From Agromyces aureus (GTDB lineage: Bacteria > Actinomycetota > Actinomycetes > Actinomycetales > Microbacteriaceae), in NCBI RefSeq assembly GCF_001660485.1, contig NZ_CP013979.1, positions 3,596,001-3,660,000 of the forward strand: a DNA stretch of 64,000 bases, given 5' to 3'. Position 1 is the stretch's first letter. Each line of letters begins with the position of its first letter. Made by a program: the position numbers and the translations under genes. Shown in pieces: positions 45,149 to 64,000 of the stretch. The notes below the pieces were generated by a model. It did no database searches and had not been told where the DNA came from. It was given only the letters and a program-made list of their open reading frames with translations.

Positions 45149-46303
45149 TCAGGCGCTCACGTTCGCGCCCAGCGCGGCATAGACCGCGCGCGTGTAGGCA
45201 TCGGAACGCGGCGAGCCGATGATGCCCGGCGACATCTGGTTCATCACGTAGGCGAACGTCGTGCGCCGATCGACGTCGTTGATGACGATCGACCCGCCCC
45301 AGCCGCCCCAGAACGCGACGCGGCCCTCGGGGATCCAGGGCGTGCTGGCCGGGTTCGATACTGCGAACCCGAGGCCGAAGCGAAGCGGCAGGCCGAGCAC
45401 GAGGTCGACGTTGTCGGTGTGCTCGGCGAAGATGCGGTCGACCGTCGCCGGCGAGAGCAGGCGCACGCCGTCGACCTCGCCGCCGTTCGAGACGAGCGCG
45501 TTGATACGCGCGACCGATCGGGCGTTGCCCTGGCCTCCGGCTCCGCCGACGCCCGCGGCGCGCCATTCCCGCGTCCACGTGACCTCGGCATCGAGCGGCG
45601 GGCCGGTGTAGGTCTTGAACGCCGGGGAGTCGGGTGGGATCGCCGAGAAGTCCAGCGTCCCCTGTGGCGGAACGACGTTGCTCACGCGGTGATCCTCGGA
45701 GGCGGGAAGTCCGAGCCAGAAGTCCGCGCCGAGCGGGCCGGCGAGCTCCTCGGCGACGTACGTTCCGAGGGAGCGTCCGGTGATGCGGCGCACGAGCTCG
45801 CCGATCAGGTGGCCGTAGTCGAGCAGGTGGTAGCCGGAGGCCGCGCCGGCCGGCCACCACGGCGGCTGCGACGCGAGACGCGCGGCTGCGGCATCCGTGT
45901 CGAGGATGTCGGCGCCCGTGATCGGCTGCGCCCAGCCCGAGACGCCCGACGTGTGCATGAGCACGTGCTTGACGAGCACGCCCTCCTTGCCGGCGGCGGC
46001 GAACTCGGGCCAGTAGTGGGCCACGGGCAGCTCGGGATCGAGTTCGCCGCGGTCGATGAGCACGAGCGCGGCGAGCGCCGTGACGGTCTTCGAGATCGAC
46101 CAGACGTTCGTGATCGTATCCTGCTGCCATTCGGCGGTGTGCTCGAGGTCGGACCAGCCTCCCCAGAGATCGACGACCGGCTCGCCGTCGACGATCACCG
46201 CGAGCGAGGCGCCGAGCTCGGCGCCCGAGGCGAGTCGGCGCTCGAACTCGTCGCGGAGCCCCGCGAAGTCGTCGTGCACGTGTCCGTGGATGGGAAGGCT
46301 CAT
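45149..46303 (-). CDS. Serine hydrolase (class C beta-lactamase-like esterase)
   Basis: 384 residues of the beta-lactamase/EstB-like family. The nucleophile motif is SISK (Ser69, Lys72) in NVWSISKTVTAL; HTSGVSGW and YHLLDYGHLIGELV (general-base Tyr) follow, and FWGGWGGSIVIND near the C-terminus replaces the KTG strand. No signal peptide, so it is probably a cytoplasmic esterase or lactonase rather than a beta-lactamase. It is divergent from the alcohol dehydrogenase gene across a strong dyad (46383-46406), placing it in the predicted catabolic regulon. GAGGAG precedes the ATG. Confidence 0.9.
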   Translation of the reverse strand: MSLPIHGHVHDDFAGLRDEFERRLASGAELGASLAVIVDGEPVVDLWGGWSDLEHTAEWQQDTITNVWSISKTVTALAALVLIDRGELDPELPVAHYWPEFAAAGKEGVLVKHVLMHTSGVSGWAQPITGADILDTDAAAARLASQPPWWPAGAASGYHLLDYGHLIGELVRRITGRSLGTYVAEELAGPLGADFWLGLPASEDHRVSNVVPPQGTLDFSAIPPDSPAFKTYTGPPLDAEVTWTREWRAAGVGGAGGQGNARSVARINALVSNGGEVDGVRLLSPATVDRIFAEHTDNVDLVLGLPLRFGLGFAVSNPASTPWIPEGRVAFWGGWGGSIVINDVDRRTTFAYVMNQMSPGIIGSPRSDAYTRAVYAALGANVSA

Positions 46304-46382
46304 CGTCGAGGCTCCTCGGGTCGAGTGGTGGTCGGGTGCGGCGTCGCGTGCTGCGTGCTGCGTGTTCCTGGTTCGATTCGCG

Positions 46383-46406
46383 AGCATACCGCGCGGTCGG
46401 TATGCT
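46383..46406. promoter_or_regulatory. Shared operator, site 1 (esterase/ADH divergent promoter)
   Basis: AGCATACCG, CGCGGT, CGGTATGCT: 9-bp perfect arms, core ACCG-NN-CG-NN-CGGT. Each outer half contains a TATGCT -10-like hexamer pointing outward, toward the esterase on one side and the alcohol dehydrogenase on the other. A repressor bound here would cover both promoters. Near-identical dyads occur at 52897-52916 and 63045-63062. Confidence 0.7.
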
Positions 46407-46456
46407 TGTCACGCGCGGTGTCGCCACGACCCGCTCGGCCGTCGAGGAGGACGTGC

Positions 46457-47605
46457 ATGCAGATCATCGGGGCGGTGCTCGAGACATCCGGCGCTGAAGC
46501 GCCCTTCGCGGTTTCGCGCCCGTTCACGGTCGGGCCGCTCGAGCTCGATCCACCGGGCGCCGGCGAACTCCTCGTGCGCATCGAGGCCGCGGGCGTGTGT
46601 CATTCAGACCTCAGCGTCGTCGACGGCAACCGTCGGCGCCCGACGCCCATGTTGCTGGGCCACGAGGCATCTGGCATCGTCGAGCAGGTCGGCGAGGGCG
46701 TGACCGACGTCGCGAGCGGCACGCGCGTGGTCATGACGTTCCTCCCCCGCTGCGGCGAGTGCCCCGAGTGCGCGAGCGACGGGCGCCTGCCCTGCCGCGT
46801 CGGCAGCGCCGCGAACGGCGCGGGCACGCTCACGGGCGGCGGCATCCGCCTGCACCGCGACGGCGCGCCCGTGCACCACCACCTCGGCGTCTCGGCGTTC
46901 GCGAGCCACGCGGTCGTCAGCCGCACCTCGGTCGTGCCGGTCGACCATGACGTGCCGGCCGAGATCGCCGCGCTCCTCGGCTGCGCGGTGCTCACGGGCG
47001 GCGGCGCCGTGATCAACGCCGGCCGGCCATCCCCCGGCTCCCGAGTCACGATCGTCGGCCTCGGCGGCGTCGGCATGGCCGCGCTGCTCGTCGCGGTCGC
47101 CCTCGGCCACGAGGTCGTCGGCGTCGATGCGCTGCCCGCCAAGCTCGCGACCGCGATCGAGTTCGGCGCGAGTGCGGCCTACGCGCCCGACGAGGCCCTG
47201 CGTGCGGCATCCGCCCCCGAGGCCGGCAACGGCAACGGCCGAGCGGATGCCGCGGGGCTCGCGCCGCTCGTCATCGAGGCCGCCGGCTCGGCCAGAGCCT
47301 TCGAGACCGCGCTCGCGTTCACCGCGCCGGGCGGCACGACGGTCACCGTCGGCCTGCCGGCGCCCGATGCCCGCGCGACGATCTCCCCGCTGACGCTCAC
47401 CGCGGAGGCCCGAACCGTCATCGGCAGTTATCTCGGCTCGGCTGTGCCGGACCGCGACATCCCGCGCTACGTGGAGCTGTGGCGGGCGGGGCGCCTGCCC
47501 CTCGAACGGCTCGTCTCGTCGCGCATCCGCCTCGACGAACTCGACGCGGCCATGGATCGCCTCGCCGCCGGCGGGGAACTCCGCCAGCTCATCACGCTCG
47601 ACTGA
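46457..47605 (+). CDS. Zinc-dependent alcohol dehydrogenase (MDR family)
   Basis: 382 residues. Catalytic-zinc segment GVCHSDLS and GHEASGIVEQVGEGV; structural-zinc lobe with four Cys in LPRCGECPECASDGRLPC; Rossmann motif VGLGGVGMAALL. It would oxidise a primary alcohol to an aldehyde with NAD+ (class III-like subgroup). Strong GAGGAGG ribosome binding site. First gene after operator site 1 and followed at 78 bp by an SDR gene. The end of the gene, including its stop, is tandemly duplicated (47597-47624). Confidence 0.92.
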   Translation: MQIIGAVLETSGAEAPFAVSRPFTVGPLELDPPGAGELLVRIEAAGVCHSDLSVVDGNRRRPTPMLLGHEASGIVEQVGEGVTDVASGTRVVMTFLPRCGECPECASDGRLPCRVGSAANGAGTLTGGGIRLHRDGAPVHHHLGVSAFASHAVVSRTSVVPVDHDVPAEIAALLGCAVLTGGGAVINAGRPSPGSRVTIVGLGGVGMAALLVAVALGHEVVGVDALPAKLATAIEFGASAAYAPDEALRAASAPEAGNGNGRADAAGLAPLVIEAAGSARAFETALAFTAPGGTTVTVGLPAPDARATISPLTLTAEARTVIGSYLGSAVPDRDIPRYVELWRAGRLPLERLVSSRIRLDELDAAMDRLAAGGELRQLITLD

Positions 47606-47635
47606 ACCCGCTCGACTGAACCCGCTCAACCGAAC
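47597..47635. repeat. 14-bp tandem duplication across a stop codon
   Basis: CTCGACTGAACCCG (47597-47610) is repeated exactly at 47611-47624, with a third degenerate partial copy to 47635. The unit contains the TGA of the alcohol dehydrogenase gene. Confidence 0.8.
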
Positions 47636-47683
47636 ATCACTCGGCCGGCCCTCGGCCGATCACCCCGACGAAAGGAACGTCGC

Positions 47684-48433
47684 ATGACCCGCACCGCCAT
47701 CGTCACCGGAGCCGCGCGCGGCATCGGAGCCGCCACCGCGAGACGCCTCGCCGCCGACGGGTTCGCCGTCGCCGTGCTCGATCTCGACGCTGCAGCCTGC
47801 GCCGACACCGTGGCCGCGATCGAGGCCGACGGGGGCCGCGCGATCGCGGTCGGCGCGAACGTCGCCGACTCGGCCGCCGTCGCGGCTGCCGTCGCCCGGG
47901 TCGCCGACGAGCTGGGGGCGCCGACGATCCTCGTGAACAATGCCGGCATCCTGCGCGACAACCTGCTCTTCAAGATGACCGACGACGACTGGGACGCCGT
48001 GCTCGGCGTGCACCTGCGCGGCGCGTTCCTGATGACCCGGGCCGTGCAGGCGCACCAGGTCGAGGCGAAATGGGGTCGCATCGTGAACCTCTCGAGCACC
48101 TCGGCGCTCGGCAACCGCGGGCAGGCGAACTACGCCGCCGCGAAGGCCGGTATGCAGGGCTTCACGAAGACGCTCGCGATCGAGCTCGGCCGCTACAACG
48201 TGACGGCGAACTCGGTCGCGCCGGGCTTCATCGCGACCGACATGCTGCGCCAGACGGCCGAGCGCATGGGCATCACGAACGAGCAGCTGCTCGAGGGCGC
48301 GGCCAAGGAGATCCCGGTCGGCCGCGTCGGCCAGCCAGAGGATGTCGCGGCCGCCGTGTCGTTCTTCTGCTCGGATGCCGCGTCGTTCGTCTCGGGCCAG
48401 GTGCTCTACGTGGCGGGCGGGCCGAAGGCATGA
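47684..48433 (+). CDS. SDR family 3-hydroxyacyl-CoA/ACP dehydrogenase
   Basis: 249 residues, classical SDR. Cofactor motif TGAARGIGAA (9-18), NNAG (85-88), catalytic Ser138, Tyr150 and Lys154 (NYAAAKAG). FabG-like length and PGFIATDML. In this context it most likely oxidises the 3-hydroxyacyl-CoA intermediate of beta-oxidation. The stop overlaps the start of the MaoC gene (ATGA), pairing it with the hydratase that precedes it biochemically. AAAGGAA ribosome binding site. Confidence 0.92.
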   Translation: MTRTAIVTGAARGIGAATARRLAADGFAVAVLDLDAAACADTVAAIEADGGRAIAVGANVADSAAVAAAVARVADELGAPTILVNNAGILRDNLLFKMTDDDWDAVLGVHLRGAFLMTRAVQAHQVEAKWGRIVNLSSTSALGNRGQANYAAAKAGMQGFTKTLAIELGRYNVTANSVAPGFIATDMLRQTAERMGITNEQLLEGAAKEIPVGRVGQPEDVAAAVSFFCSDAASFVSGQVLYVAGGPKA

Positions 48434-48906
48434 GCGCGACGCCCGGCTCCCCGCTGCGGCTCGCCTCGCCCGCCGACCTGCTCGACGCGGTCGGCACGGC
48501 CATCGGCCCCGGCGCCTGGTTCGAGGTCGACCAGGCCCGCATCGAGCGGTTCGCGGATGCCACCGACGACCACCAGTGGATCCACGTCGACGTCGAGCGG
48601 GCCACCGCCGGCCCCTTCGGCGCCCCGATCGCGCACGGGTTCCTCACGCTGTCGCTGCTCACCGCACTCGCCACCCCGCTGCTCGAGGTACCGGGCGTCG
48701 CGATGGGCGTGAACTACGGCTTCGAGAAGGTGCGGTTCCTGCAGCCGGTGACCGCGGGCTCGCGCGTGCGAGCGGTCGGAACGCTCGCCTCGGCCGAGCC
48801 GACCGGCAGCGGCATCCGGGTGGTGCAGGACCTCACGATCGAGATCGAGGGATCGGAGCGCCCAGCGCTCATCGCCCAGTGGGTCACGCTCCTCGTGCCC
48901 GCCTGA
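48430..48906 (+). CDS. MaoC family hydratase
   Basis: 158 residues, a single hot-dog domain. The hydratase motif is DDHQWIHVD with GAPIAHGFLTLSL, giving the Asp/His pair of (R)-specific enoyl-CoA hydratases. It would hydrate 2-enoyl-CoA to 3-hydroxyacyl-CoA for the coupled SDR. Similar to NodN/PhaJ-like enzymes of actinobacterial catabolic clusters. Last gene of the operon; a very long hairpin follows. Confidence 0.93.
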   Translation: MSATPGSPLRLASPADLLDAVGTAIGPGAWFEVDQARIERFADATDDHQWIHVDVERATAGPFGAPIAHGFLTLSLLTALATPLLEVPGVAMGVNYGFEKVRFLQPVTAGSRVRAVGTLASAEPTGSGIRVVQDLTIEIEGSERPALIAQWVTLLVPA

Positions 48907-48929
48907 CCACCGGTTGGCCTCCTGCGCAC

Positions 48930-48989: not shown

Positions 48990-49007
48990 AGGTGTGCGGC
49001 GCTGGCG

Positions 49008-50246
49008 TCAGACGCGCTCGAGCACGAGGGCCATGCCCTGGCCGCCGCCGACGCACATGGTCTCGAGGCCGTAGCGTCCGCCGGTGGCGGCGAGCCCGTT
49101 GATGAGCGTCGAGGTGATGCGCGCGCCCGTCATGCCGAACGGGTGTCCGACGGCGATCGCACCGCCGTGCACGTTGAGCCGCTCGGGATCGACGCCGAGC
49201 TCGCGCGCCGACGGGATCACCTGCGCGGCGAACGCCTCGTTGAGCTCGACGAGGTCGATGTCGTCGATCGAGAGTCCGGCGCGGGCGAGCGCCCGGCGCG
49301 ACGCCTCGACGGGTCCGAGTCCCATGATCTCGGGCGAGAGCCCGCTGACGCCCGTCGATACGATGCGGGCGAGCGGCTGCAGCCCGAGCTCGTCGACGAT
49401 GCGGTCGGAGACGACGACGACCGCCGCGGCGCCGTCGTTGAGCGGGCAGCAGTTGCCGGCGGTCACGGTGCCGTCGGGGCGGAACACGGGGTCGAGCCCC
49501 GCGAGGGCCTCGACCGTGACGCCGGCGCGCGGTCCGTCGTCGGCCGAGACGACCGTGCCGTCGGCGAGGGTCACGGGAGTGATGTCGTTCGCCCAGAATC
49601 CCGAGGCGATCGCCGCTTCGGCACGCTGCTGGCTGCGGGCGGCGAAGGCGTCCTGCTCGTCACGCGTGACGCCGCGCAGCTCGGCGACGTTCTCGGCCGT
49701 CTGGCCCATGGCGATGTACGCGTCGGGCAGCAGGCCGTCGATGCGGGGGTCGTGCCAGGGGCGCAGGCCCGCGGCATCCGCCCCACCGACGGCTCGGGCC
49801 TGCGTGCGCGCCTCGGCCTCGTCGAAACGCGGGTTGGTGAGCTTCGCGCCCGGGATGTAGTCGGCCGAGCCGACGCCCATGTTCGACACCGACTCGACGC
49901 CCGCCGAGATGAACACGTCGCCCTCGCCGGCCTTGATCGCGTGGAAGGCCATGCGCGTCGTCTGCAGGCTCGACGAGCAGTACCGGTTCACGGTCGTGCC
50001 CGGCAACCCGTCGAGTCCGAGCAGCACGGCGACGATGCGCGCCAGGTTCATGCCCTGCTCACCGCCGGGCTGGCCGCAGCCGAGCAGCAGGTCCTCGACC
50101 CGGGCGGGGTCGAGCGCCGGAACCGCGGCGAGCGCGGCCTCGACCATCTGCACGGTGAGCTCGTCGCCGCGGATGCCGGCGAGCGACCCCTTGCGGGCGC
50201 GGCCGATCGGCGAGCGGGCGGTGGCGACGATGTAGGCCTCGGTCAT
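49008..50246 (-). CDS. Acetyl-CoA acyltransferase (thiolase)
   Basis: 412 residues. Nucleophile Cys90 in NRYCSSSLQT, NEAFAAQ, HGGAIAVGHPFG (catalytic His) and the second Cys in METMCVGGGQG-like segment LETMCVGGGQG are complete. It performs the thiolytic cleavage ending a beta-oxidation round (FadA type). Transcribed toward the MaoC gene, 166 bp after the acyl-CoA dehydrogenase stop on the same strand. The ATG has a GGAGA-type ribosome binding site. Confidence 0.95.
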   Translation of the reverse strand: MTEAYIVATARSPIGRARKGSLAGIRGDELTVQMVEAALAAVPALDPARVEDLLLGCGQPGGEQGMNLARIVAVLLGLDGLPGTTVNRYCSSSLQTTRMAFHAIKAGEGDVFISAGVESVSNMGVGSADYIPGAKLTNPRFDEAEARTQARAVGGADAAGLRPWHDPRIDGLLPDAYIAMGQTAENVAELRGVTRDEQDAFAARSQQRAEAAIASGFWANDITPVTLADGTVVSADDGPRAGVTVEALAGLDPVFRPDGTVTAGNCCPLNDGAAAVVVVSDRIVDELGLQPLARIVSTGVSGLSPEIMGLGPVEASRRALARAGLSIDDIDLVELNEAFAAQVIPSARELGVDPERLNVHGGAIAVGHPFGMTGARITSTLINGLAATGGRYGLETMCVGGGQGMALVLERV

Positions 50247-50411: not shown

Positions 50412-51641
50412 TCAGACGAAGGCGGCGATGCCCGTGATGGCGCGGCCGACGATGAGCGTGTTCATGTCGTACGTGCCCTCGAACGTATAGACGGCCTCGG
50501 CGTCGGCGAAGAAGCGCGCGGCACCGTGGTCGAGCTGGATGCCGTTGCCGCCCATGAGTTCGCGACTGCGGGCGACGACCTCGCGCATGCGCTTCGTCGC
50601 GAAGGCCTTGGCCATGGCCGAGTGGTGGTCCTTCTGGGCGTCCTCGTCGAGCATCTCGCTCACGCGCACGCAGAGCGCGATCGACGCCGTGATGTCGGCG
50701 AGCGAGTCGGCGAGCTTCTGCTGCACGAGCTGGAACGAGGCGATGGGCTTGCCGAACTGCACGCGGGTCTTCGCGTAGGCGAGGGCGGCCTCGTAGGCGC
50801 CGACGGCGACGCCGATCGCCTGCCACGCGACATCCGCTCGGGTGAGGCGCAGCACGATGGCGACGTCGCGGAACCCGTGGATCTCCTGCAGCCGGTCGGA
50901 CTCGGGCACGATCACGTCCTCGAGCACGATGTCGGCGTTCTCGACAGCGCGGAGCGACTGCTTGCGCTCGATCTTCGTGGCGGTGAAGCCCGTGGCCGGC
51001 TGGCGCACGAGGTAGCCCTTGACCTGGTCGTCGGCCGTGTCGCGCGCCCAGATGACGACGACGTCGGCGAAGGTCGCGTTGCCGATCCAGCGCTTGGCGC
51101 CGTTCAGCACCCACTCGTCGGTGCCGTCGGCGTTCGTGCGACGCGTGGCCGTGGTCTCGAGGCCCTTCGCGGTGTCGGAGCCGTGCAGCGGTTCGGTGAG
51201 GCCGAAGGCGCCGATGAGCTCGCCGCGCGCCATCGGCTCGAGCCACTCGGCCTTCTGCTCGGGCGAACCACCGACGGCGATCGCGTTCATCGCGAGCCCG
51301 GAGTGCACGCCGATGAAGGTCGCGGTCGACGGGTCGACACGCGCGATCTCGAGGGCGATCCAGCCGCGGTAGACGGCCGAGTTCTCGAAGTGCGCGACCT
51401 CGGGGATGCCCGAGCCGAAGAGGCCGAGCTCGGCGAAGCCGGGGATCAGGTGCCGCGGGCTCGTCGTCGCCTCCCAGCGGTCGTCGGCGCCGGGGCGCAC
51501 CTCGCGCTCGAGGTAGTCGCGGATCTCGGCGACCGAGGCCTGCTCGGCCGGGGTGAGGCGGCCCATGAAGCCGTAGAAGTCGGCGTCGAGCACGGCGCCG
51601 GCCGTCGCGGCCTCGGACTGGGGGTCGAGTGTGAGCGTCAT
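50412..51641 (-). CDS. Acyl-CoA dehydrogenase, glutaryl-CoA-dehydrogenase-like
   Basis: 409 residues. FAD-binding and substrate segments GAFGLTEPLHGSDT and LNGAKRWIGNATFADV match the glutaryl-CoA dehydrogenase subfamily; the C-terminal MGGNGIQLDHGAARFFADAEAVYTFEGTYDMNTL contains the catalytic Glu (FEGTYD). It would introduce the 2,3-double bond in a short or branched acyl-CoA. Divergent from a QsdR-like regulator over a dyad at 51676-51699. ATG 51641 was chosen at the conserved MTLTLDPQ start, upstream sequence in frame being the reverse of the regulator gene. Confidence 0.93.
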   Translation of the reverse strand: MTLTLDPQSEAATAGAVLDADFYGFMGRLTPAEQASVAEIRDYLEREVRPGADDRWEATTSPRHLIPGFAELGLFGSGIPEVAHFENSAVYRGWIALEIARVDPSTATFIGVHSGLAMNAIAVGGSPEQKAEWLEPMARGELIGAFGLTEPLHGSDTAKGLETTATRRTNADGTDEWVLNGAKRWIGNATFADVVVIWARDTADDQVKGYLVRQPATGFTATKIERKQSLRAVENADIVLEDVIVPESDRLQEIHGFRDVAIVLRLTRADVAWQAIGVAVGAYEAALAYAKTRVQFGKPIASFQLVQQKLADSLADITASIALCVRVSEMLDEDAQKDHHSAMAKAFATKRMREVVARSRELMGGNGIQLDHGAARFFADAEAVYTFEGTYDMNTLIVGRAITGIAAFV

Positions 51642-51675: not shown

Positions 51676-51699
51676 TGCATCATTTTCGAGAATGTTGCA
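51676..51699. promoter_or_regulatory. Imperfect 24-bp palindrome between ACAD and QsdR-like genes
   Basis: TGCA (51676-51679) and TGCA (51696-51699) flank the near-palindrome CATTTTCGAGAATG (51681-51694; CATTnTCGAnAATG). It lies in the divergent promoter and is probably the operator of the regulator at 51732. Confidence 0.5.
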
Positions 51700-51731: not shown

Positions 51732-52445
51732 ATGCCGACGACGACCGGAACCGCCCACGAGATCGCCGAGGTGGGCCTGCGCGCCGCACCCTCGTGGCTC
51801 TCCGAACGCCTGGCCGACGGCGGGCACGCCGACGCGGTGCGCGCATTCGAGCTCGCACGCGAGACCTTCATCAGCGGCCGTCGCATCGACATGGGCTCGC
51901 TCGCGACGACCCTCGGCGTCGACCGCACCTCGCTCTTCCGCTGGGTCGGCAACCGCGACGCCCTGCTCAGCGAGGTGCTGTGGTCGCTCGCCGTACCGAC
52001 GCTCGTGCTCTCGGAGCACGCGACCGAGCGCCTGCACGGCGCCGAGCGCGTGGCCGAGCAGCTCTCGAGCTTCGCTGGCGCGCTGATCAGTGCGCAGTAC
52101 TTCCGCGACTTCCTGCGCCGCGAACCCGCCCGCGCGCTGCGCCTGCTCACGACGACCGAGAGCGAGATCCAGCGCCGCTACGTCGCCACCGCCCGCTGGC
52201 TCGTCGAACGCGAACTCGGCGGGCGCCCGCTCGGCGGCGCGATCACGACCGACGAGCTCGCCTACCTGCTCGTGCGCGTCTCGGAGTCGTTCACCTACGC
52301 CGACCTCATCGCCGGCGACACCCCGAGCGAGGCGCGGGCGCGGCGCGCGTTCCGCATCCTGCTGCGGGCCGACCTCGCCGGGGCGACGGATGCCTCGACG
52401 GAGGACGCCGCGCCGACGGATGCCGCAGCCGAGGTCGCGCCGTGA
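51732..52445 (+). CDS. QsdR/TetR-like transcriptional regulator
   Basis: 237 residues. A central helix-turn-helix (about 55-85) reads MGSLATTLGVDRTSLFRWVGNRDALLSEVLW, preceded by a 40-residue N-terminal extension. This layout and the FELARETFISGRRIDMG lead-in fit the QsdR family, named after the regulator of gamma-lactone catabolism in Rhodococcus. The C-terminus is Ala/Asp/Thr-rich. It is divergent from an acyl-CoA dehydrogenase and overlaps a thioesterase gene (GTGA), so a local repressor of acyl-CoA genes is likely. QsdR membership is from memory of the family, not a search. Confidence 0.8.
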   Translation: MPTTTGTAHEIAEVGLRAAPSWLSERLADGGHADAVRAFELARETFISGRRIDMGSLATTLGVDRTSLFRWVGNRDALLSEVLWSLAVPTLVLSEHATERLHGAERVAEQLSSFAGALISAQYFRDFLRREPARALRLLTTTESEIQRRYVATARWLVERELGGRPLGGAITTDELAYLLVRVSESFTYADLIAGDTPSEARARRAFRILLRADLAGATDASTEDAAPTDAAAEVAP

Positions 52446-52855
52446 CGCACCGCCCCGAGCGCCGCCCGTTCACCACGCGCTGGAACGACAACGACCAGTA
52501 CGGGCACGTGAACAACACCGTCTACTACGAGGCCATGGACACGGCCGTCAACACGTGGATGATCGAGCACGCCGGCCTCGATCCGCACGGCGACGAGCCG
52601 ATCGGGCTCGTGGTCTCCTCGAACTGCGAGTTCCGCGCGTCGGCGTCGTTCCCCGAGCCGCTCGAGGTCGCGATCGGCGTCGAGCGCTTGGGCTCGTCGA
52701 GCATCACGTGGTCGCTCGGCATCCACCGCAGCGGCGAGGCCGAGCCCATCGCCGAGGGCCGCTTCGTGCACGTCTTCGTCGATGCCGGGTCGCGTCGCCC
52801 CGTGCCGATCCCGGCCGGCATCCGCTCCGAGGTCGAGGCGCGCCTGCTCGCGTGA
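52442..52855 (+). CDS. Acyl-CoA thioesterase (4HBT hot-dog fold)
   Basis: 137 residues. The catalytic segment WNDNDQYGHVNNTVYYEAMDTAVN is typical of 4-hydroxybenzoyl-CoA thioesterase-like enzymes (Asp in DQYGHVNN). It would hydrolyse excess acyl-CoA. GTG start overlaps the regulator stop by 4 bp, so it is coupled to QsdR. A perfect palindrome follows 15 nt after the stop. Confidence 0.92.
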   Translation: MTHRPERRPFTTRWNDNDQYGHVNNTVYYEAMDTAVNTWMIEHAGLDPHGDEPIGLVVSSNCEFRASASFPEPLEVAIGVERLGSSSITWSLGIHRSGEAEPIAEGRFVHVFVDAGSRRPVPIPAGIRSEVEARLLA

Positions 52856-52896: not shown

Positions 52897-52916
52897 CATA
52901 CCGACCGCGCGGTATG
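52897..52916. promoter_or_regulatory. Shared operator, site 2 (phosphotransferase operon)
   Basis: CATACCG, ACCGCG, CGGTATG: core ACCG-NN-CG-NN-CGGT as at site 1. TATGCT at 52913-52918 overlaps the right half and, with TTCACG at 52889-52894 (spacer 18), could be the promoter of the gene starting at 52998. Confidence 0.7.
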
Positions 52917-57585: not shown

Positions 57586-57912
57586 TCAGTCCCAGTCGTA
57601 CGACTCCGGGTCCCGTCCGTGTCGCTCCGCGAACTGCGACCGGAGCTCCGCCTCGGTGACGACCTCGCCCGCGGCAAGACGTTCGAGATGGGGAAGCAGC
57701 CAGTCGCCGTCGGCGCCGCCGACCTTGTCCCGAAGCCGGCTGAGGACGAATGCGGGTTCGAAGCGGCCTCCGGCGGACCCGTGACCCGCACCCTCGGAGA
57801 CGGCCACCTTGGGTTCCGGCCCGGATACGCTCACGTCGATCCAGTACGGCCACGTGAAGGCATCGCCCTCGTTTCGGTCGAGCCAATTCGAGGCGAGTCG
57901 CAGATACCGCAT
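57586..57912 (-). CDS. Hypothetical protein, leaderless start
   Basis: 108 residues, no recognised domain: an N-terminal MRYLRLASNWLDRNEGDAFTWPYWIDVSVSG reminiscent of immunity-type small proteins, a glycine-rich centre, then helical LPHLERLAAGEVVTEAELRSQFAERHGRDPESYDWD. Codon bias is typical. TACGGT lies 6 nt before the ATG, so the mRNA is probably leaderless. It is the last gene in the direction of the Liv operon but is separated from it by a hairpin. Confidence 0.7.
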   Translation of the reverse strand: MRYLRLASNWLDRNEGDAFTWPYWIDVSVSGPEPKVAVSEGAGHGSAGGRFEPAFVLSRLRDKVGGADGDWLLPHLERLAAGEVVTEAELRSQFAERHGRDPESYDWD

Positions 57913-57918
57913 GGACCC

Positions 57919-57924
57919 ACCGTA
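57919..57924 (-). promoter_or_regulatory. -10 element of a leaderless promoter
   Basis: TACGGT on the minus strand, 6 nt before the ATG at 57912. Confidence 0.5.
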
Positions 57925-57948
57925 CGACGGGGCGATCGGCTCGAACGA

Positions 57949-57983
57949 CGGATGCCCCCGACCTCGTGGGCCAGGGGCATCCG
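57949..57983. terminator. Hairpin terminator of the Liv operon
   Basis: CGGATGCCCC (57949-57958) and GGGGCATCCG (57974-57983), perfect 10-bp arms, about 20 nt beyond the stop of the substrate-binding protein gene. Confidence 0.6.
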
Positions 57984-58003
57984 CCGTCTCGGTACCGTGC
58001 GAG

Positions 58004-59314
58004 CTACGACGTGGGGAGGCCGTCGTTCTCGAGCGGCACGGCGTCGCCGTCGAAGGGCTCGACGCCGCCGGATCCATCGCTCACGTAGGTGACGCCGATG
58101 AAGTCCTGCACGCCGTCGGCCACCGTGGTGATGGAGACGCCCTTGTAGGCGGCGTGGCTGTCGGCGCCGAACGAGAGCGGCACGAGGCCGTTGCCGACGA
58201 GGTCGCCCGACTGGATCGCGTCGACGATGCCCTGGCGGGTCGGGTTCTCGCCGGCCTTGGCGAGGGCTTCCGCGAAGAGGTACCCGACCGACATGCCGAA
58301 CACGGTGTTGCCGTCGAAGGGCGCACCGTCGTTGTACTCGTCGTTGATCTGGCGGAACAGGTCGTCCCACTCGTTGCCGGGCGCATAGGGCAGGTAGTTC
58401 GTGGTCACGAAGCCCTCGAGCAGCAGCGGCGCCGCATCGCCGAGGAATCCGGCGAGCGTCACGTAGTCGCCGCCCGATGAGGAGGACATCCACTGCGCCT
58501 GGTAGCCGAGCTTCGCCGCCGTGCCGATGGCGAGCGCCGTGAAGCCGTTGACGGTGGCGAGCATGTTCACCTCGCAGCCGGCGGCCTTCATGGCGCCGAT
58601 CTGCGCGACGACGTCCTGGTTCGAGACCGAGTAGCGCTGCACGCTCGCGAGCGATCCCTCGCCGAGCACGTTCTCGAGGCCCTCGATGAACTCGTCGCCG
58701 AAGTCGTCGTCCTGGCCGAGCACGCAGACCGACTTGCCCGCGAACTCGTCGTCGGCGTACTGCGCGAGCGCCTCGGCCTCGGTGACGTAGTCGGCGTTGA
58801 ACCCGAACGTCCACGGGTACTTCTCGGGCTGGTTCCAGCTGGTGGAGCCCGAGGCCACGAACAGGTCGGGCACCTCGTTCTGGTTGAGGTAGTCGAGCAC
58901 CGACGTGTGCGTCGGCGTGCCGAGGCCGTTGAGGATCGCGAACACCTCGTCGTCCTGCACGAGCTCGCGCACGACCGTCTGCGTGTTCGCGGGGTTGTAG
59001 CCGTCGTCCTTCACGAGGTACTCGATCTCGCGGCCGTTCACACCGCCGTTCTCGTTCAGGTAGGCGAAGTAGGCCGTGGTCGCGGCCGAGATCGACGAGT
59101 ATCCGGCCGCGGCCGGCCCGGTCAGCGGCTGGTGGGTGCCGATCGTCACGGTGTCGTCGGTGACGCCGGGCGCGGCTTCGGCGGGGTCGGCCCCGCTCGG
59201 GGTGCTGCACGCGCTCATCGCGACGAGCAGGGCGGATGCGGCCGCGATCGCGGCGGCGGTGCGCGTCGGTGCGCTGCGCGTCGCGGCGGCGGTGCGCTGC
59301 GGTGCTTGGGACAT
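58004..59314 (-). CDS. livK: Liv-type ABC transporter substrate-binding lipoprotein
   Basis: 436 residues. Signal peptide with lipobox ending AMSAC (lipidated Cys near 36), then a type-I periplasmic-binding fold: VTIGTHQPLTGPAAAGYSSI, FAILNGLGTPTHTSVLDYLN, VCVLGQDDDFGDEF. It binds the substrate outside the cell for the Liv permeases. Despite the Leu/Ile/Val name, proteins of this family in acyl-CoA clusters often bind aromatic or aliphatic carboxylates; the substrate cannot be told from sequence. AGAGAGG precedes the ATG. It is the last gene of the operon, 5 nt after LivM. Confidence 0.92.
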   Translation of the reverse strand: MSQAPQRTAAATRSAPTRTAAAIAAASALLVAMSACSTPSGADPAEAAPGVTDDTVTIGTHQPLTGPAAAGYSSISAATTAYFAYLNENGGVNGREIEYLVKDDGYNPANTQTVVRELVQDDEVFAILNGLGTPTHTSVLDYLNQNEVPDLFVASGSTSWNQPEKYPWTFGFNADYVTEAEALAQYADDEFAGKSVCVLGQDDDFGDEFIEGLENVLGEGSLASVQRYSVSNQDVVAQIGAMKAAGCEVNMLATVNGFTALAIGTAAKLGYQAQWMSSSSGGDYVTLAGFLGDAAPLLLEGFVTTNYLPYAPGNEWDDLFRQINDEYNDGAPFDGNTVFGMSVGYLFAEALAKAGENPTRQGIVDAIQSGDLVGNGLVPLSFGADSHAAYKGVSITTVADGVQDFIGVTYVSDGSGGVEPFDGDAVPLENDGLPTS

Positions 59315-59319: not shown

Positions 59320-60549
59320 TCACCTCTCTGTTGTGGTGGGGATGGGTTCTGCTGCGGAGCTGGTGCGAGGTTCGGGGGCGGGCGCGGGCGCGGAGTCGAG
59401 CTCGGGCACGTTGTCGGGCGCCGGCACGACGGCCGACGGCGTCGCGGAGGCGCCGCGTCGCGGCATCCGCTTCGGAAGCACCCCGCGAATGCCGCCCGGC
59501 CAGGCCGCCGTCACGACGATGAGCAGCACGCCGAACACGAGCACGGGCAGGTTGCCCGTGAGGCGCTGGGCGGCGTCGGCCGAGAGGTCGAGCGCGCCGG
59601 TCGCGGTCTGGATGACCCACGGCAGCATGACGATCACGATCGACCCGAGGAACGCGCCGAGCAGGCTGCCGAGTCCGCCGATCACGACGGCCACGACGAG
59701 CAGCAGCGAGAACGCGAGCGTGTAGGCGCCGGGGCTCACCGACTGGGTCACGAAGCAGAGCACCGCGCCGCCCGCACCGGCCGCGATCGAGCTCGCGGTG
59801 AAGGCGAGCACCTTCACGCGTCCGGCGCGCACGCCCTGCAGCCGGGCGGAGGTCTCGTCGTCGCGCACGGCGCGCATGCCCAGGCCGGCGGGCCCGTTGC
59901 GCAGCACCGCGAGCCAGGTCACGACTGCCGCGGCCACGAGGATCGCGACCCACGCCTGCCACTGCTCGACGGCGATGAGCGTGCGCAGCGCCTCGGGCAC
60001 CCCGTCGTACGCGATCTGCACGCCCTGGTCGCCGCGGAACACGCCCGAGAACACCGAGGTGAACGCGGGCAGCGCGATCACGAGCACGAGCGTCACGCCC
60101 GAGAGGTACGGCCCCTTGAGGCGCGCGGCGGCGAGCCCGAGCAGCAGGCCCAGCAGGGCGGATGCCGCGACCGCCGCCGCGAGCGACACCACGAAACGCG
60201 GCACGCCGTCGACCCCTGCGTCGGTCAGCGCGTTCGAAGCGAGCGCGTAGCCGTACCCGCCGGCGGCCATGAGCGCGGCGTGCCCGAGCGAGAGCTGACC
60301 GGTGAGGCCGATCAGCAGCGTGAGCCCTGCGGTCGCGCAGAACGTCGCGGCGATGAGGGCGAACTGGTAGTTGCGGTACGGGTCGAGCAAGAACGTCGCG
60401 CCGATCGCGACGAGCGTGAGCACGAGCGCGGTGACGAGCAGGCGCGGGGTCGGGCGGCGTGCACCCGCACGGCCGTTCGCGCTCCCGCTCGCGCGGATGC
60501 TCGTGGTGAGCGGCCCGGCTGTGCGGGGCTCCTGGGCGTCGGCGCTCAT
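59320..60549 (-). CDS. livM: Liv-type ABC permease, LivM subunit
   Basis: 409 residues, about ten helices. LivM features: FCATAGLTLLIGLTGQLSLGHAALMAAGGY near the start and the cytoplasmic EAA-type loop LRNGPAGLGMRAVRDDETSARLQGV. The C-terminal 55 residues are Pro/Ala-rich and disordered, longer than usual. Start overlaps the LivH stop (ATGA). Confidence 0.92.
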   Translation of the reverse strand: MSADAQEPRTAGPLTTSIRASGSANGRAGARRPTPRLLVTALVLTLVAIGATFLLDPYRNYQFALIAATFCATAGLTLLIGLTGQLSLGHAALMAAGGYGYALASNALTDAGVDGVPRFVVSLAAAVAASALLGLLLGLAAARLKGPYLSGVTLVLVIALPAFTSVFSGVFRGDQGVQIAYDGVPEALRTLIAVEQWQAWVAILVAAAVVTWLAVLRNGPAGLGMRAVRDDETSARLQGVRAGRVKVLAFTASSIAAGAGGAVLCFVTQSVSPGAYTLAFSLLLVVAVVIGGLGSLLGAFLGSIVIVMLPWVIQTATGALDLSADAAQRLTGNLPVLVFGVLLIVVTAAWPGGIRGVLPKRMPRRGASATPSAVVPAPDNVPELDSAPAPAPEPRTSSAAEPIPTTTER

Positions 60550-61424
60550 GCGGTCCTCGCCTCGGTCGCGGCGAAGAGCCCGCCGGGGCGCACGAGCAGC
60601 ACGGCCACGAGCAGCCCGAGCACCGCGATGGGGGCGACGGTCGCGCCGAGGTATCCGGTCACGAGGCTGATGAGCACCCCGACGACGAGTCCCCCGATGA
60701 GCGCGCCGGGCGGCGAGTCGAGCCCGCCGACCACGGCGACCGTGAACGCCGAGACGAAGAGCAGGTCGGCCGAGTGCGGGTTGAGGCCGAGCTCGGTCGG
60801 CACGAGCAGCAGCGCCGCGAGGGCGCCCACGGCCGACGCGAGCACCCATCCGGCCGTGACCATGCGGGCCACGCGCACGCCGAGCAGGCGCGACACCTCG
60901 GGCGCGAATGCCGAGGCGCGCAGCTGCAGGCCGAGCGAGGTGCGCGTGAAGAGCAGCGCGAGCACGCCCATGAGCCCGATCGCCACGACGAGCACGAACA
61001 GGTCGTACGGCGAGAGCACGGGCACCCCGCCGAGCACGATCGGCGTCTCGGGGAACGGCGCCTCCATCGGGCGCGCGTTCGGTCCGAACGCGATGCCGAG
61101 CAACGACTGCAGCACCATCACCACGCCGATCGCGATGATCACGCCCGAAAGGGGTGACGCATGCGTCGCGAAGCGCATCACCCCGCGCTCGACGATAAGG
61201 CCCATCAGGCCGCCCGCGACGAGGGCGCTCGCGAGGCCGATCCAGTACGAGCCGGTGAGTCCGGTGACGGCGAAGGCGACGTAGGTCGCGACGACGGCCA
61301 TCGCCCCCTGGGCGAAGTTCACGACGCGCGCGGCGCGCCAGATGAGCACGAGGGCGAGGGCGAACAGCGCGAAGATCGCGCCGCGCGCGAGGCCGGTGGC
61401 GAGGAGGAAGAGGAGGCGGTCCAT
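60546..61424 (-). CDS. livH: Liv-type ABC permease, LivH subunit
   Basis: 292 residues, eight helices. ALFALALVLIWRAARVVNFAQGAMAVVATY at the N-terminus and the EAA loop TSLGLQLRASAFAPEVSRLLGVRV followed by PPGALIGGLVVGVL are diagnostic. The LivF stop and this ATG share one base. Forms the membrane channel with LivM. Confidence 0.93.
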   Translation of the reverse strand: MDRLLFLLATGLARGAIFALFALALVLIWRAARVVNFAQGAMAVVATYVAFAVTGLTGSYWIGLASALVAGGLMGLIVERGVMRFATHASPLSGVIIAIGVVMVLQSLLGIAFGPNARPMEAPFPETPIVLGGVPVLSPYDLFVLVVAIGLMGVLALLFTRTSLGLQLRASAFAPEVSRLLGVRVARMVTAGWVLASAVGALAALLLVPTELGLNPHSADLLFVSAFTVAVVGGLDSPPGALIGGLVVGVLISLVTGYLGATVAPIAVLGLLVAVLLVRPGGLFAATEARTA

Positions 61425-62212
61425 CAGAATCCCAGGTAGGCGTGGCGGAGGGCGGAGTCGGTGCGGAGGTCTTCGGCCGGACGATCGGCGACGACCTCGC
61501 CGAGGTTCAGCACGACGCCGTGGTCGGCGACGGCGAGGGCGCTCGTGACGTTCTGCTCGGCGAGCAGCACCGTGAGGCCGCGCTCGTCGCGCAGCGTGCG
61601 CAGCACGGCCATGATCTGGGCGACCACGCGGGGCGCGAGCCCGAGCGAGGGCTCGTCGAGCAGCAGCACGCGCGGCTCGGCGATGATCGCCCGGCCGAGC
61701 GCGAGCATCTGCCGCTCGCCGCCCGAGAGCTGGTGCCCGGCGGAGCGACGGCGGCGCGCGAGCGGCTCGAACATCTCGTAGACGCCGTCGACGGCCGCGG
61801 TGAGCCGCCGCCCGCGGAAGCGCTGCAGGCCACCGAGGCGCAGGTTCTCGTCGACGGTGAGCTCGGCCACGACGCTGCGTCCCTCGGGCACCTGCGCGAG
61901 TCCGGCGCGGGCGCGGTCCTCGACCGAGACGCCGGCCAGGTCGACGCCGTCGAACACGATGCGACCGGATGCCGCGGGCACGAGTCCCGACACGGTGCGG
62001 AGCAGCGTGGTCTTGCCCGCTCCGTTCGCTCCGAGCAGGGCGAGGATCGTGCCGGCCGGCACGCGCACGTCGACGCCGCGCAGCACGGGCGCGCCGCCGT
62101 AGCCGGCGGTCAGGCCGTCGAGGTGCAGCTCGGCGCCGGCGCGCTCCGCGACGCGGAGGGCGTCGCGCGCACTGCGAACGGCAGCTGCGGTGGCGTGCGG
62201 TTGCGCGCTCAT
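61424..62212 (-). CDS. livF: Liv-type ABC ATPase, LivF subunit
   Basis: 262 residues. Walker A GANGAGKTT, Q-loop region QVPEGRSVVAELTVDENL (LivF-specific), signature LSGGERQML, Walker B LLLDEPSLGLAP, switch His region AEQNV. An Ala-rich 30-residue N-terminal extension precedes the domain. Start overlaps the LivG stop (ATGA). Confidence 0.94.
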   Translation of the reverse strand: MSAQPHATAAAVRSARDALRVAERAGAELHLDGLTAGYGGAPVLRGVDVRVPAGTILALLGANGAGKTTLLRTVSGLVPAASGRIVFDGVDLAGVSVEDRARAGLAQVPEGRSVVAELTVDENLRLGGLQRFRGRRLTAAVDGVYEMFEPLARRRRSAGHQLSGGERQMLALGRAIIAEPRVLLLDEPSLGLAPRVVAQIMAVLRTLRDERGLTVLLAEQNVTSALAVADHGVVLNLGEVVADRPAEDLRTDSALRHAYLGF

Positions 62213-63003
62213 GCGGCCGGCTCGATCCCGAGGTACGCCTCTTCGACGCGGGGGTCGGCACGCACCTCGTCGGGCGTGCCGCAAGCGATGACGCGTCCGA
62301 AGTCGAGCACGACGATGCGGTCGGCGACGCCCATCACGAAGTCCACGTGGTGTTCGACGAGCAGCACCGAGCATCCGGATGCCGCGACCGCGCGCACGAC
62401 GTCGGCGAGCGCGTCGATGTCCTCTTCGCCGAGTCCGCCGGCCGGCTCGTCGAGCAGCAGCAGGGTCGGACCCGTCACGAGGGCGCGTGCGAGTGCGACG
62501 CGCTTGCGCTCGGGGTAGGGCAGGGCGGCGACCGGCCGTGACGCGAGGTGGGCGATGCCGAGCCGCTCGAGGCATCCGCTCGCCTGCGTCGTGGCGTCGG
62601 CGCGCGACGTACGACCGACCGCTCGACCGCTCGCACCCGATTCGAGTGGCACGAGCACGTTCTCGAGCACGCTCATCGAGTCGAAGAGGCCGAGGCCCTG
62701 GAGCGTGCGGGCGACGCGCCGGGTGACGAGCCCGGTCGGACGACTCGGCGCGGAGACGCCGTCGATGCGGATCTCGCCGGCGGCCCGCCGCACGAGACCG
62801 CACACGGCGTTGAACACCGTGGTCTTGCCCGCGCCGTTGGGGCCGATGAGGGCGACGACCTCGCCCGCGCCGACCTCGAACGAGACGTCGTCGAGCGCGG
62901 TGAGCCCGCCGAAGCGCACGGTCAGCTGGTCGACCCGCAATCGCGGTTCGGGAACGGATGCAGCGGCGGAGGTCTGCTCCGCGCCGCTCGGCGTGTGGTT
63001 CAT
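62209..63003 (-). CDS. livG: Liv-type ABC ATPase, LivG subunit
   Basis: 264 residues. Walker A GPNGAGKTT, the LivG pattern RRVARTLQGLGLFDSMSVLENV, Walker B LLLLDEPAGGL and the switch VEHHVDFV. The signature motif reads LPYPERKRVALARAL instead of the usual LSYGxQRR/LSGGQ form, an unusual substitution at the ATP-contacting Gly-Gln positions. First gene of the five-gene operon. ATG 63003 is preferred over a GTG two codons upstream because AGAGG is 5 nt away. Operator site 3 is 42 bp before it. Confidence 0.9.
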   Translation of the reverse strand: MNHTPSGAEQTSAAASVPEPRLRVDQLTVRFGGLTALDDVSFEVGAGEVVALIGPNGAGKTTVFNAVCGLVRRAAGEIRIDGVSAPSRPTGLVTRRVARTLQGLGLFDSMSVLENVLVPLESGASGRAVGRTSRADATTQASGCLERLGIAHLASRPVAALPYPERKRVALARALVTGPTLLLLDEPAGGLGEEDIDALADVVRAVAASGCSVLLVEHHVDFVMGVADRIVVLDFGRVIACGTPDEVRADPRVEEAYLGIEPAA

Positions 63004-63044
63004 CGGCACCTCTTCGTGTCGGTTGCAAGGTCACTGTACAACAG

Positions 63045-63062
63045 ATACCGACCAGACGGTAT
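63045..63062. promoter_or_regulatory. Shared operator, site 3 (Liv/DUF1254 divergent promoter)
   Basis: ATACCG, ACCAGA, CGGTAT: same arms and spacing as sites 1 and 2, with CA instead of CG in the centre. It lies between livG (start 63003) and the DUF1254 gene (start 63143). A TACAGT -10-like hexamer toward livG is near 63032-63037. Confidence 0.65.
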
Positions 63063-63130
63063 GCCCGAGTTCCGCACTCGCGCGACGCGCCGCCCACCGC
63101 CGCCTCGACCTCCCGTGCGAGGGTGCGTGC

Positions 63131-63136
63131 GACGAT
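63131..63136 (+). promoter_or_regulatory. -10-like element before the DUF1254 gene
   Basis: GACGAT, 6 nt before the GTG at 63143; same hexamer and spacing as before PhzF. Confidence 0.35.
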
Positions 63137-63142
63137 CGGACG

Positions 63143-64000
63143 GTGAGCATCCACGTGAACGTCGACAACTTCGCCCGCGCCGAGACCGACCGCATGTTCC
63201 ACGACCTGCAGCGAAATGCCGGCGGCGTCGGCCGGTTCCTGCACAATCGCGAGCCCGCGTCGGTCGAGGAGCAGGCCGTGATCCGCATGAACCGCGACAC
63301 GCTCTACAGCTTCGCGGTGGTCGATGCCACGGCCGGCGCCACGCTGACGCTCCCCGAGCACGGCGATCGCTACCTCTCGGCGATGGTCGTCAACGAGGAC
63401 CACTACATCGACGCCGTCTTCCACGATCCGGGCGAGTACGAGATCACCGCCGAGCGCTTCGGCACGCCGTACGTCGTGGTCGCCGTGCGCACGCTCGTCG
63501 ACCCCGCCGACCCGGCCGACATCGCCGCGGTCGCCGCGATCCAGGACGCCATCTCACTCGCCACCGGCGCCGACGCGACCCCGTTCGAGTCCCCCGAGTA
63601 CGACACCGCCTCGCTCGACGAGACCCGCGACGCACTGCTCGCCCTCGCCCGCAACCTCACGGGCTTCGACCGCACGTTCGGCGCGAAGCACGAGGTCGAC
63701 CCGGTGCGTCACCTCATCGGCACCGCCGCGGGCTGGGGCGGCCTCCCGAGCAGCGAGGCGTCGTACCTCGGCGTCGACCCGCGACTGCCGGTCGGCACCT
63801 ACGAACTCACGGTGGCGGATGTCCCGGTCGACGGCTTCTGGTCGATCTCGGTCTACAACGCGAAGGGGTTCTTCGAGCCCAACGAGCGCGGTGCGTACAC
63901 GGTGAACAACATCACCGGCGTGCGCAATGCCGACGGATCGACGACCGTGCGCTTCGGCGACTATCCGGCCGACGTGCCGAACGCGATCCCGATCACCGAG
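63143..64000 (+). CDS. DUF1254/DUF1214 protein, cut by the window end
   Basis: 286 residues are present; the C-terminus lies outside the window. VSIHVNVDNFARAETDRMFHDL and NRDTLYSFAVVDAT open the DUF1254 part; the DUF1214 part shows DGFWSISVYNAKGFFEPNERGAYTVNN and FGDYPADVPNAIPITE. Function is unknown; such proteins often occur beside catabolic or lipid genes. GTG start with a leaderless GACGAT arrangement. No signal peptide is seen. It is divergent from the Liv operon across operator site 3 and so belongs to the predicted regulon. Confidence 0.88.
   Translation, partial: MSIHVNVDNFARAETDRMFHDLQRNAGGVGRFLHNREPASVEEQAVIRMNRDTLYSFAVVDATAGATLTLPEHGDRYLSAMVVNEDHYIDAVFHDPGEYEITAERFGTPYVVVAVRTLVDPADPADIAAVAAIQDAISLATGADATPFESPEYDTASLDETRDALLALARNLTGFDRTFGAKHEVDPVRHLIGTAAGWGGLPSSEASYLGVDPRLPVGTYELTVADVPVDGFWSISVYNAKGFFEPNERGAYTVNNITGVRNADGSTTVRFGDYPADVPNAIPITE

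Follow-up and report, generated by a model that had tools for sequence, protein, structure and literature searches.

The Question Raised by the Locus

What does the right-hand part of this window (64,000 nucleotides of Agromyces aureus contig NZ_CP013979.1, positions 3,596,001 to 3,660,000) break down, and which regulator decides when it does so? From position 45,149 onward it carries genes for an esterase, dehydrogenases, a coenzyme A (CoA) ligase, a thiolase and a Liv importer, among them the adjoining genes of an APH-fold kinase (APH) and an atypical acyl-CoA dehydrogenase (ACAD2), together with three copies of the inverted repeat ATACCG-N6-CGGTAT, hereafter the dyad. Comparison of these genes and sites across genomes makes it highly probable that the locus forms a regulon, conserved among actinobacteria, for the breakdown of 4-hydroxy (or 4-oxo, gamma-lactone) carboxylic acids, and that two local TetR repressors, here called TetRA and TetRB, govern it. 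The substrate probably belongs to the 4-hydroxy acids, 4-oxo acids or gamma-lactones, the last being a plausible choice.

The APH-ACAD2 Pair

The diagnostic residues of ACAD2 and APH are the strongest evidence for a predicted 4-hydroxyacyl-CoA intermediate. In the lva operon of Pseudomonas putida and in mammalian ACAD10/ACAD11, a kinase and an atypical acyl-CoA dehydrogenase (ACAD) take 4-hydroxyacyl-CoA through a 4-phospho intermediate to 2-enoyl-CoA, as described in excerpts of PMC12440821 and PMC11342911. In mouse ACAD11 the phosphate is bound by Arg626, His634 and Arg637, which are absent from conventional ACADs, Asp753 serves as the base, and Asp220 and Asn225 are residues of the kinase (excerpt of PMC12440821). 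Equivalents of Arg626, His634, Arg637 and the catalytic Asp753 occur in all 60 full-length ACAD2 orthologs (71 found, 11 short ones excluded). None of the 21 full-length sequences of ACAD1, a conventional dehydrogenase of the same cluster used as negative control, carries them; Val/Ile, Val, Gln/Ser and Glu stand there in 21/21. APH orthologs possess the equivalents of kinase Asp220 and Asn225 in 39/39 cases and that of the CoA-contacting Arg176 in 38/39, the remaining one being an X (56 found, 17 short ones excluded). The kinase residue R86 of the mouse paper is not aligned to an Arg in APH; an Arg beside the following Glu (positions 84-85) is kept in 39/39. The earlier sequence-only reading had taken the pair as pointing to a 4-hydroxyacyl-CoA route, and the presence of the ACAD10/11/LvaC residues makes that proposal well founded.

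Distribution agrees with control by TetRA: ACAD2 at 75% identity or above is found in 19 of the 19 TetRA-positive and in none of the 72 negative genomes of the genus and family, and also in both TetRA-positive genomes of a neighbouring family.

Four Dyads in One Genome

The genome measures 4.37 Mb and the window has a GC content of 71.7%; positions beyond 64000 are given in the extended frame of the window. The three dyads of the sequence-only reading are present and perfect (Table 1), its intervals 46383-46406 and 52897-52916 including flanking bases, and its gene order is confirmed: esterase and zinc-dependent alcohol dehydrogenase around the first site, APH-ACAD-ligase after the second, and the Liv operon and DUF1254 around the third. 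The whole genome holds exactly four perfect sites, plus five with one mismatch, and all four fall within 21.3 kb (C1:3642386-3663671), so that a dyad common throughout the genome and unlinked to these genes, which that reading had named as a way to fail, is not what was found. By base composition 0.001 perfect dyads would be expected per 64 kb and 0.075 per genome, and the pattern read backwards, as a control, has no perfect site in the whole genome. At three mismatches or fewer the window count (13) is at chance level (shuffle mean 10.9), and hence only perfect dyads carry weight.

In agreement with the sequence-only reading, the dyads mark a single conserved regulon whose genes serve transport, CoA activation and beta-oxidation-like steps. 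A genome search had been proposed with a stricter pattern, ATACCGNNCRNNCGGTAT; this pattern would miss the fourth site, ATACCGACTAGACGGTAT. That site (C1:3663654) lies 3.7 kb past the window end, between SDR2, a short-chain dehydrogenase/reductase (SDR) gene, and a major facilitator superfamily (MFS) gene. The operon behind it consists of SDR2, TetRA, a quinone-oxidoreductase-like gene (QOR) and a second SDR gene (SDR3), and thus supplies the one TetR gene behind a dyad for which the same search was to look.

A separate conserved operator, TACTATACCGGCTGGACGGTATAGTA, is seen at L035:1497-1522 between a small TetR-like and an MFS-like gene (identified by eye and by homology to L035), and also in L021, L022, L025 and L209-L211. 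In the A. aureus genome its counterpart is the one-mismatch site C1:1871006 (L006), with a ATACCAACTGGACGGTAT core, which sits between divergent TetR and MFS genes homologous to those of L035 and was rejected as a member of the regulon.

TetRA as the Likely Owner of the Dyad

TetRA, encoded just outside the window, is likely to own the dyad: of the 21 genomes that have an ortholog, 15 contain at least two perfect dyads, against 1 of the 129 that lack it. The 150 genomes searched include that of A. aureus; an ortholog was defined by E < 1e-50, and matches at 30-32% identity (G014, G034, G065, G066) were scored negative. At least one perfect dyad is present in 31 of the 150. The sixteenth genome with two or more, G083, has no TetRA ortholog; its two perfect dyads are 355 kb apart and have unrelated spacers. 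With G083 counted as negative, Fisher's test of the co-occurrence gives p 3e-16; this is uncorrected for relatedness and overstates the significance, because the counted genomes are related. The other six TetRA genomes possess one perfect dyad (G037) or near-perfect sites only, at the same promoters. A reduced cluster comprising only Liv and SDR-TetRA, considered for G001, G006, G016 and G024, was rejected: the contig in question also carries the other genes at a distance of about 20 kb, and these have near-perfect sites.

The dyad also marks particular promoters. In the surroundings of TetRA in the 21 genomes, genes were called with a caller of our own and 320 bp upstream were examined, divergent genes sharing a site; mismatches were counted over the 12 core positions, and background genes less than 900 bp from a cluster gene were left out. 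At one mismatch or fewer the dyad is found at 17/21 SDR2 promoters (21/21 at two or fewer), 19/19 of LivG, 20/21 of APH, 16/18 of the alcohol dehydrogenase gene ADH and 9/10 of the esterase gene EST, against 0/309 background promoters (2/309 at two or fewer). The single APH miss (G006) seems to come from a gene start called too far upstream; a dyad is seen directly before APH there.

Spread Among Actinobacteria

A scan of named genomes with a TetRA alignment yielded at least 479 confirmed matches, of which the best 80 were analysed, with loci extending up to 10 kb either side. They include Agromyces, Leifsonia, Microbacterium, Cellulomonas, Isoptericola, Promicromonospora, Demequina, Kineosporia, Glycomyces and others. 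An intergenic dyad (two mismatches or fewer) occurs in 79 of these 80 loci, at 71 of 73 called SDR2 promoters and 61 of 62 called LivG promoters; the exceptions are L186, which begins at SDR2, L142, without a site found, and L169, where a called frame lies between site and LivG. Outside genes lie 158 of the 185 dyads at this threshold, though intergenic DNA makes up only 183,668 of 1,516,379 bases. In Microbacterium, Cellulomonas, Isoptericola and Glycomyces the same promoters carry almost identical dyads. Pooling 145 sites gives the consensus AtACCGaCC|GGtCGGTaT, in which the 12 core positions are favoured by the way the sites were selected and the inner six are not. In the 29 named genomes searched whole, AWACCG-N6-CGGTWT occurs 106 times in sum and its backward control not at all. 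A class-wide draw of 296 genomes contained TetRA (E < 1e-50) in 17, 11 of them at 44-47% identity; three distant loci (G304, G375, G341; 45-46%) were compared, and G304 (46%) has a one-mismatch dyad before APH-ACAD2.

In several Microbacterium genomes the dyad lies between SDR2 and a divergent, additional acyl-CoA dehydrogenase gene (L175:7824-9056; L122, L124, L126, L129, L153, L159). An acyl-CoA dehydrogenase, c9, is the sole candidate pathway gene among the SDR2 neighbours in other genera; the remainder, by eye DNA-ligase-like, PerM-like and PEBP-like, are genus-specific and were judged unrelated. In Leucobacter two TetRA-type dyads lie 90 bp apart in one promoter region (G173:C17:114253 and 114343; L173, L183), and L173 and L183 have more than one LivK-like gene.

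Could this be a general or medium-chain fatty-acid beta-oxidation regulon of the FadR-like kind, in which APH-ACAD2 is one branch of many? ACAD1, MaoC, SDR1, the thiolase, the ligase and the thioesterase are ordinary beta-oxidation types, and the fold neighbours of TetRA include FadR proteins. The cluster is, however, probably not the genome's only beta-oxidation locus, because most of the nine Acyl-CoA_dh_1 matches (two in the cluster) and seven Thiolase_C matches (one in the cluster) lie elsewhere, yet every perfect dyad is in the cluster; as the whole story, general beta-oxidation was rejected on these outside copies. The cluster is moreover patchy in genus and family (19 of 91 genomes), TetRA tracks ACAD2 exactly, and the distant G304 again places its dyad before APH-ACAD2, all of which renders this explanation unlikely.

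What Kind of Regulator Is TetRA?

The PDB sequence matches of TetRA include 3dcf, 2iai, PfmR (3vpr) and MbdR (4uds). For the ortholog from Agromyces allii a fold model was made with the aid of 15 orthologs (pLDDT 91.9) and compared using Foldseek; it is nearest to KstR2, 3dcf, DarR, PfmR and AibR with isovaleryl-CoA, the query TM-scores to KstR2, PfmR and AibR being 0.78-0.86. The fold thus resembles that of acyl-CoA-sensing TetR proteins, but these neighbours are not all acyl-CoA sensors, because DarR binds cyclic di-AMP. The operator core of PaaR from Burkholderia cenocepacia, ACCGACCGGTCGGT, is needed for repression according to an excerpt of PMC2770484; that of TetRA equals it, and ACCGACC-type half sites occur in both. 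PfmR of Thermus recognises TACCGACCGNTNGGTN (as quoted in PMC7022988, in part), and MbdR of Azoarcus recognises ATACN10GTAT, with 3-methylbenzoyl-CoA as inducer (excerpt of PMC4424350); both share with TetRA a likeness of operator and the TetR fold. From this agreement of the relatives' known operators with the dyad, our best guess is that the TetRA effector would be a CoA thioester. The three systems differ from TetRA in their low sequence identity and in that its target genes are not those of phenylacetate or methylbenzoate catabolism.

An aromatic or alicyclic acid pathway resembling that for phenylacetate would account for the operator core identical with PaaR's, for the MbdR-type spacing and for the best NCBIfam match of SDR3, ChcB1 (4-hydroxycyclohexanecarboxylate dehydrogenase). 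That match reaches 263 bits against a cut-off of 400, however, and neither a ring oxygenase or ring-opening enzyme nor paa ring-epoxidase and ring-opening genes under the operator were found among the scanned cluster genes; APH-ACAD2 would be left without a role. We surmise that such a pathway is very unlikely.

TetRB and a Second Palindrome

The sequence-only reading had placed all these genes in a single regulon, with the QsdR-like protein, TetRB, as the hinted regulator. Neither part was borne out: ACAD1-thiolase and TetRB-thioesterase carry a separate palindrome and no dyad, and the likely owner of the dyad is another TetR outside the window. The palindrome, with the consensus TGCAWCATT-N6-AATGTTGCA, was read by eye from the ACAD1/TetRB intergenic stretches of 16 genomes, which for that reason provide no independent test of it; G001, G006, G016, G024, G023 and the named loci are independent. 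It is present (one mismatch or fewer) at all 20 called TetRB promoters, four of them in genomes not used for reading the motif, and at 0/309 background promoters at two mismatches or fewer. TetRB is called in 20 of the 21 TetRA genomes and was detected by tblastn in the other (G023). In A. aureus the sole exact match is the site in Table 1; one other place matches at three mismatches, and the backward control gives three such. Among ten named loci with a called TetRB, seven have the palindrome at two mismatches or fewer, L157 and L187 are without it and the sequence of L143 stops at the gene. ACAD1, the thiolase, TetRB and the thioesterase, each called in 20-21 genomes, have no dyad within 320 bp in any of them. 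Judged from these sites, TetRB is not the owner of the dyad and there are two interleaved regulons, because TetRB has its own palindrome, shared with ACAD1-thiolase.

One regulon in which TetRB binds the ATACCG dyads would gain from the location of TetRB within the cluster and from its matching range, but is highly improbable: besides the different palindrome in 20/20 called cases, a palindrome of the same type (1-2 mismatches) stands just upstream of TetRB in 5/6 Promicromonospora loci, where the gene is relocated beside SDR2, and SDR2, the gene before TetRA, has the dyad in all 21 genomes. A reading of the dyads as terminators of transcription, as repeats or as palindromes arisen by accident has next to no chance, for although they are palindromic and two overlap predicted sigma-70-like boxes (one pointing away from APH), their position and core are conserved across many genera and no background gene has one at one mismatch or fewer.

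The family of TetRB, PF18598, is named after QsdR. At E up to 0.01 TetRB has a single relative in the PDB, 4ZA6 (E 5e-10), which is QsdR, a lactone-responsive repressor according to excerpts of PMC6262395 and PMC6476934. TetRB resembles the QsdR/qsd system of Rhodococcus erythropolis in this match, in a QsdR-like effector domain and in a divergent catabolic gene beside the regulator, and gamma-lactone chemistry would fit its cluster. It differs in that the similarity is weak and TetRB is divergent from ACAD1-thiolase, not from the lactonase gene qsdA.

Degenerate palindromes of the TetRB type (2-4 mismatches) start 21-30 bp before the Liv dyad in four loci of Isoptericola and Krasilnikoviella (L155:13013, L156:12591, L161:13558, L166:12618), as if TetRB also governs import there.

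Points Against the Proposed Regulon

Several observations weigh against a 4-hydroxy acid regulon controlled by TetRA through the dyad. An unrelated TetR/MFS pair in several of these genomes uses the same core in an extended form, TACTATACCG...CGGTATAGTA, and therefore the dyad alone cannot name its owner. In the fold alignments TetRA shares no more than 21-22% identity with KstR2, PfmR and AibR, which makes its effector class a guess. Some members are inconstant: MFS is called in 10/21 genomes and has the dyad (one mismatch or fewer) in 6/10, EST is called in 10/21 and DUF1254 in 3/21. A dyad of its own within 400 bp of APH is seen in only 7/39 cases among the best 80 named loci; in many of the others APH stands behind LivK in the same direction (several genera) or at the locus edge. 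Of the distant loci, G375 carries APH-ACAD2 nowhere within 20 kb and its sole dyad, with two mismatches, is at TetRA; G341 lacks both. Eleven genomes of other families possess a less similar relative of ACAD2 without TetRA. There is no constant overlap of the dyad with a -10 box, TANNNT occurring at the tested offset in 10/73 SDR2 and 0/60 LivG site flanks. The genome has no match to PF02126, the family of the lactonase QsdA (positive in 2/14 control genomes; other lactonase families were not searched).

Genes and Predicted Operators

The ligand of LivK was sought among its PDB relatives, which were not informative (24 weak matches to binding proteins, best E 4e-18). Coordinates are collected in Table 1.

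Table 1. Genes and predicted regulatory sites of the locus; positions above 64000 are in the extended frame.
Feature	Position	Strand	Basis and remarks
EST, serine esterase, beta-lactamase fold (LipL/EstB-like)	45149..46303	-	PF00144; NF052353 184 of 650 bits, far below cut-off; in 10/21 genomes
TetRA operator 1 (predicted)	46386..46403	.	ATACCGCGCGGTCGGTAT; between EST and ADH; 53 bp from ADH start, 82 bp from EST start
ADH, Zn-dependent alcohol dehydrogenase	46457..47605	+	PF08240/PF00107
SDR1, FabG-like 3-hydroxyacyl dehydrogenase/reductase	47684..48433	+	family-profile matches
MAOC, MaoC-like enoyl-CoA hydratase	48430..48906	+	PF01575
THL, acetyl-CoA C-acetyltransferase	49008..50246	-	NF005890 708 bits, over cut-off
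ACAD1, conventional acyl-CoA dehydrogenase	50412..51641	-	catalytic Glu; without phosphate-binding residues
TetRB operator (predicted)	51676..51699	.	TGCATCATTTTCGAGAATGTTGCA; ACAD1/TetRB divergent promoter
TetRB, QsdR-like TetR (TetR_C_36)	51732..52445	+	PF18598, 126 bits
TE, 4HBT-type thioesterase	52442..52855	+	PF13279
TetRA operator 2 (predicted)	52898..52915	.	ATACCGACCGCGCGGTAT; before APH-ACAD2-ligase; 82 bp from APH start
APH, APH-fold kinase, LvaA/ACAD10-11 type	52998..54146	+	PF01636; ACAD11 kinase domain E 1e-43; catalytic residues
ACAD2, LvaC/ACAD10-11-type phosphate-eliminating acyl-CoA dehydrogenase (predicted)	54150..55364	+	ACAD11 E 3e-138; R256, R261, H264, R267, D383
LIG, acyl-CoA ligase	55433..57046	+	PF00501
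163-aa open frame between ligase and LivK	57586-58077	-	no Pfam or NCBIfam match
LivK, substrate-binding protein of Liv importer	58004..59314	-	PF13458
LivM, LivH (permeases, PF02653), LivF, LivG (ATPases, PF00005)	59320..63003	-	Pfam
TetRA operator 3 (predicted)	63045..63062	.	ATACCGACCAGACGGTAT; between LivG and DUF1254; 41 bp from LivG start
DUF1254/DUF1214 protein, accessory	63143..64000, continues to 64084	+	called in 3/21 genomes
TetRA	66135-66734; L010:7135-7734	-	TetR gene after SDR2, outside window
TetRA operator 4 (predicted)	67654-67671, outside window	.	ATACCGACTAGACGGTAT; between SDR2 and MFS

Proposed Pathway and Its Control

The substrate would enter through the Liv importer, or be released from an ester or lactone by EST, and be ligated to CoA by LIG; SDR2, SDR3, QOR and ADH presumably adjust carbonyl, hydroxyl or enone groups. 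APH would then phosphorylate the 4-hydroxyl and ACAD2 eliminate the phosphate to give the 2-enoyl-CoA, which MaoC may hydrate, SDR1 oxidise and THL cleave, with ACAD1 serving later rounds. The SDR- and QOR-type enzymes are probably part of the chemistry, because they are found beside ACAD2 in TetRA-less genomes too: in three of the eleven that were inspected, an SDR2-like gene is alongside in two and another SDR in the third, and of the two SDR2-like loci the first additionally carries genes for a QOR, a further SDR and a thioesterase, and the second genes for a MaoC and a HAD hydrolase.

At L249:8735-9430, in a genome without TetRA, a HAD-family hydrolase gene lies between SDR2- and MaoC-like genes near an ACAD2 ortholog; in ACAD10 a HAD-like domain accompanies the kinase and ACAD domains (excerpt of PMC12440821).

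TetRA is predicted to bind its consensus at four promoter regions, EST/ADH-SDR1-MaoC, APH-ACAD2-LIG, Liv/DUF1254 and its own SDR2-TetRA-QOR-SDR3/MFS, and, by analogy with PaaR, MbdR and AibR, probably lets go as a pathway CoA thioester accumulates. TetRB would bind its palindrome and control ACAD1-thiolase and TetRB-TE, with a ligand that, as for QsdR, may be a lactone. A tentative and rather doubtful extension is a two-key switch, in which TetRB would respond to the lactone or 4-hydroxy compound in its free form and TetRA to the CoA thioester of that compound, so that the full pathway would open only when the substrate is both present and being activated. The natural substrates could then be oxidised-lipid or plant oxylipin C5-C9 4-hydroxy/4-oxo-2-alkenoic acids, which the Liv importer, the SDRs and QOR, an enone reductase type, make conceivable.

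The locus resembles the lva operon and ACAD10/11 in the diagnostic residues of APH and ACAD2, with the ligase and SDRs nearby; it differs in having the Liv importer, QOR, further SDRs, MaoC, ACAD1 and the thiolase in one gene set. The regulator of lva, LvaR, is sigma-54 dependent. Two TetR regulators are present here in contrast to LvaR for lva (PMC10164729, in part).

What the Locus Means

The enzyme pair and the operator type are each already known. What appears to be new is their union with the Liv importer, further SDRs, QOR and two dedicated TetR proteins in one conserved actinobacterial gene set; no prior description of this regulon was found among the papers listed in searches of open-licence literature. 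Catabolism of 4-hydroxy acids via a phosphorylated CoA intermediate was worked out in mammals only recently (excerpts of PMC11342911, 2024, and PMC12440821, 2025).

The locus would represent a conserved bacterial system for 4-hydroxy acids, with proposed regulators and operators, in Agromyces, Microbacterium, Cellulomonas, Isoptericola and Glycomyces. Three questions become directly testable: which 4-hydroxy or 4-oxo acids or lactones are degraded by these soil actinobacteria, to what a TetR protein using a PaaR-type operator responds when aromatic catabolism is not involved, and whether lactone sensing by a QsdR-like protein extends beyond quorum quenching; the operators may find use as sensors for such acids. 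If oxidised-lipid or plant oxylipin acids are indeed the natural substrates, the pathway would be a bacterial counterpart of mammalian 4-hydroxy-acid clearance.

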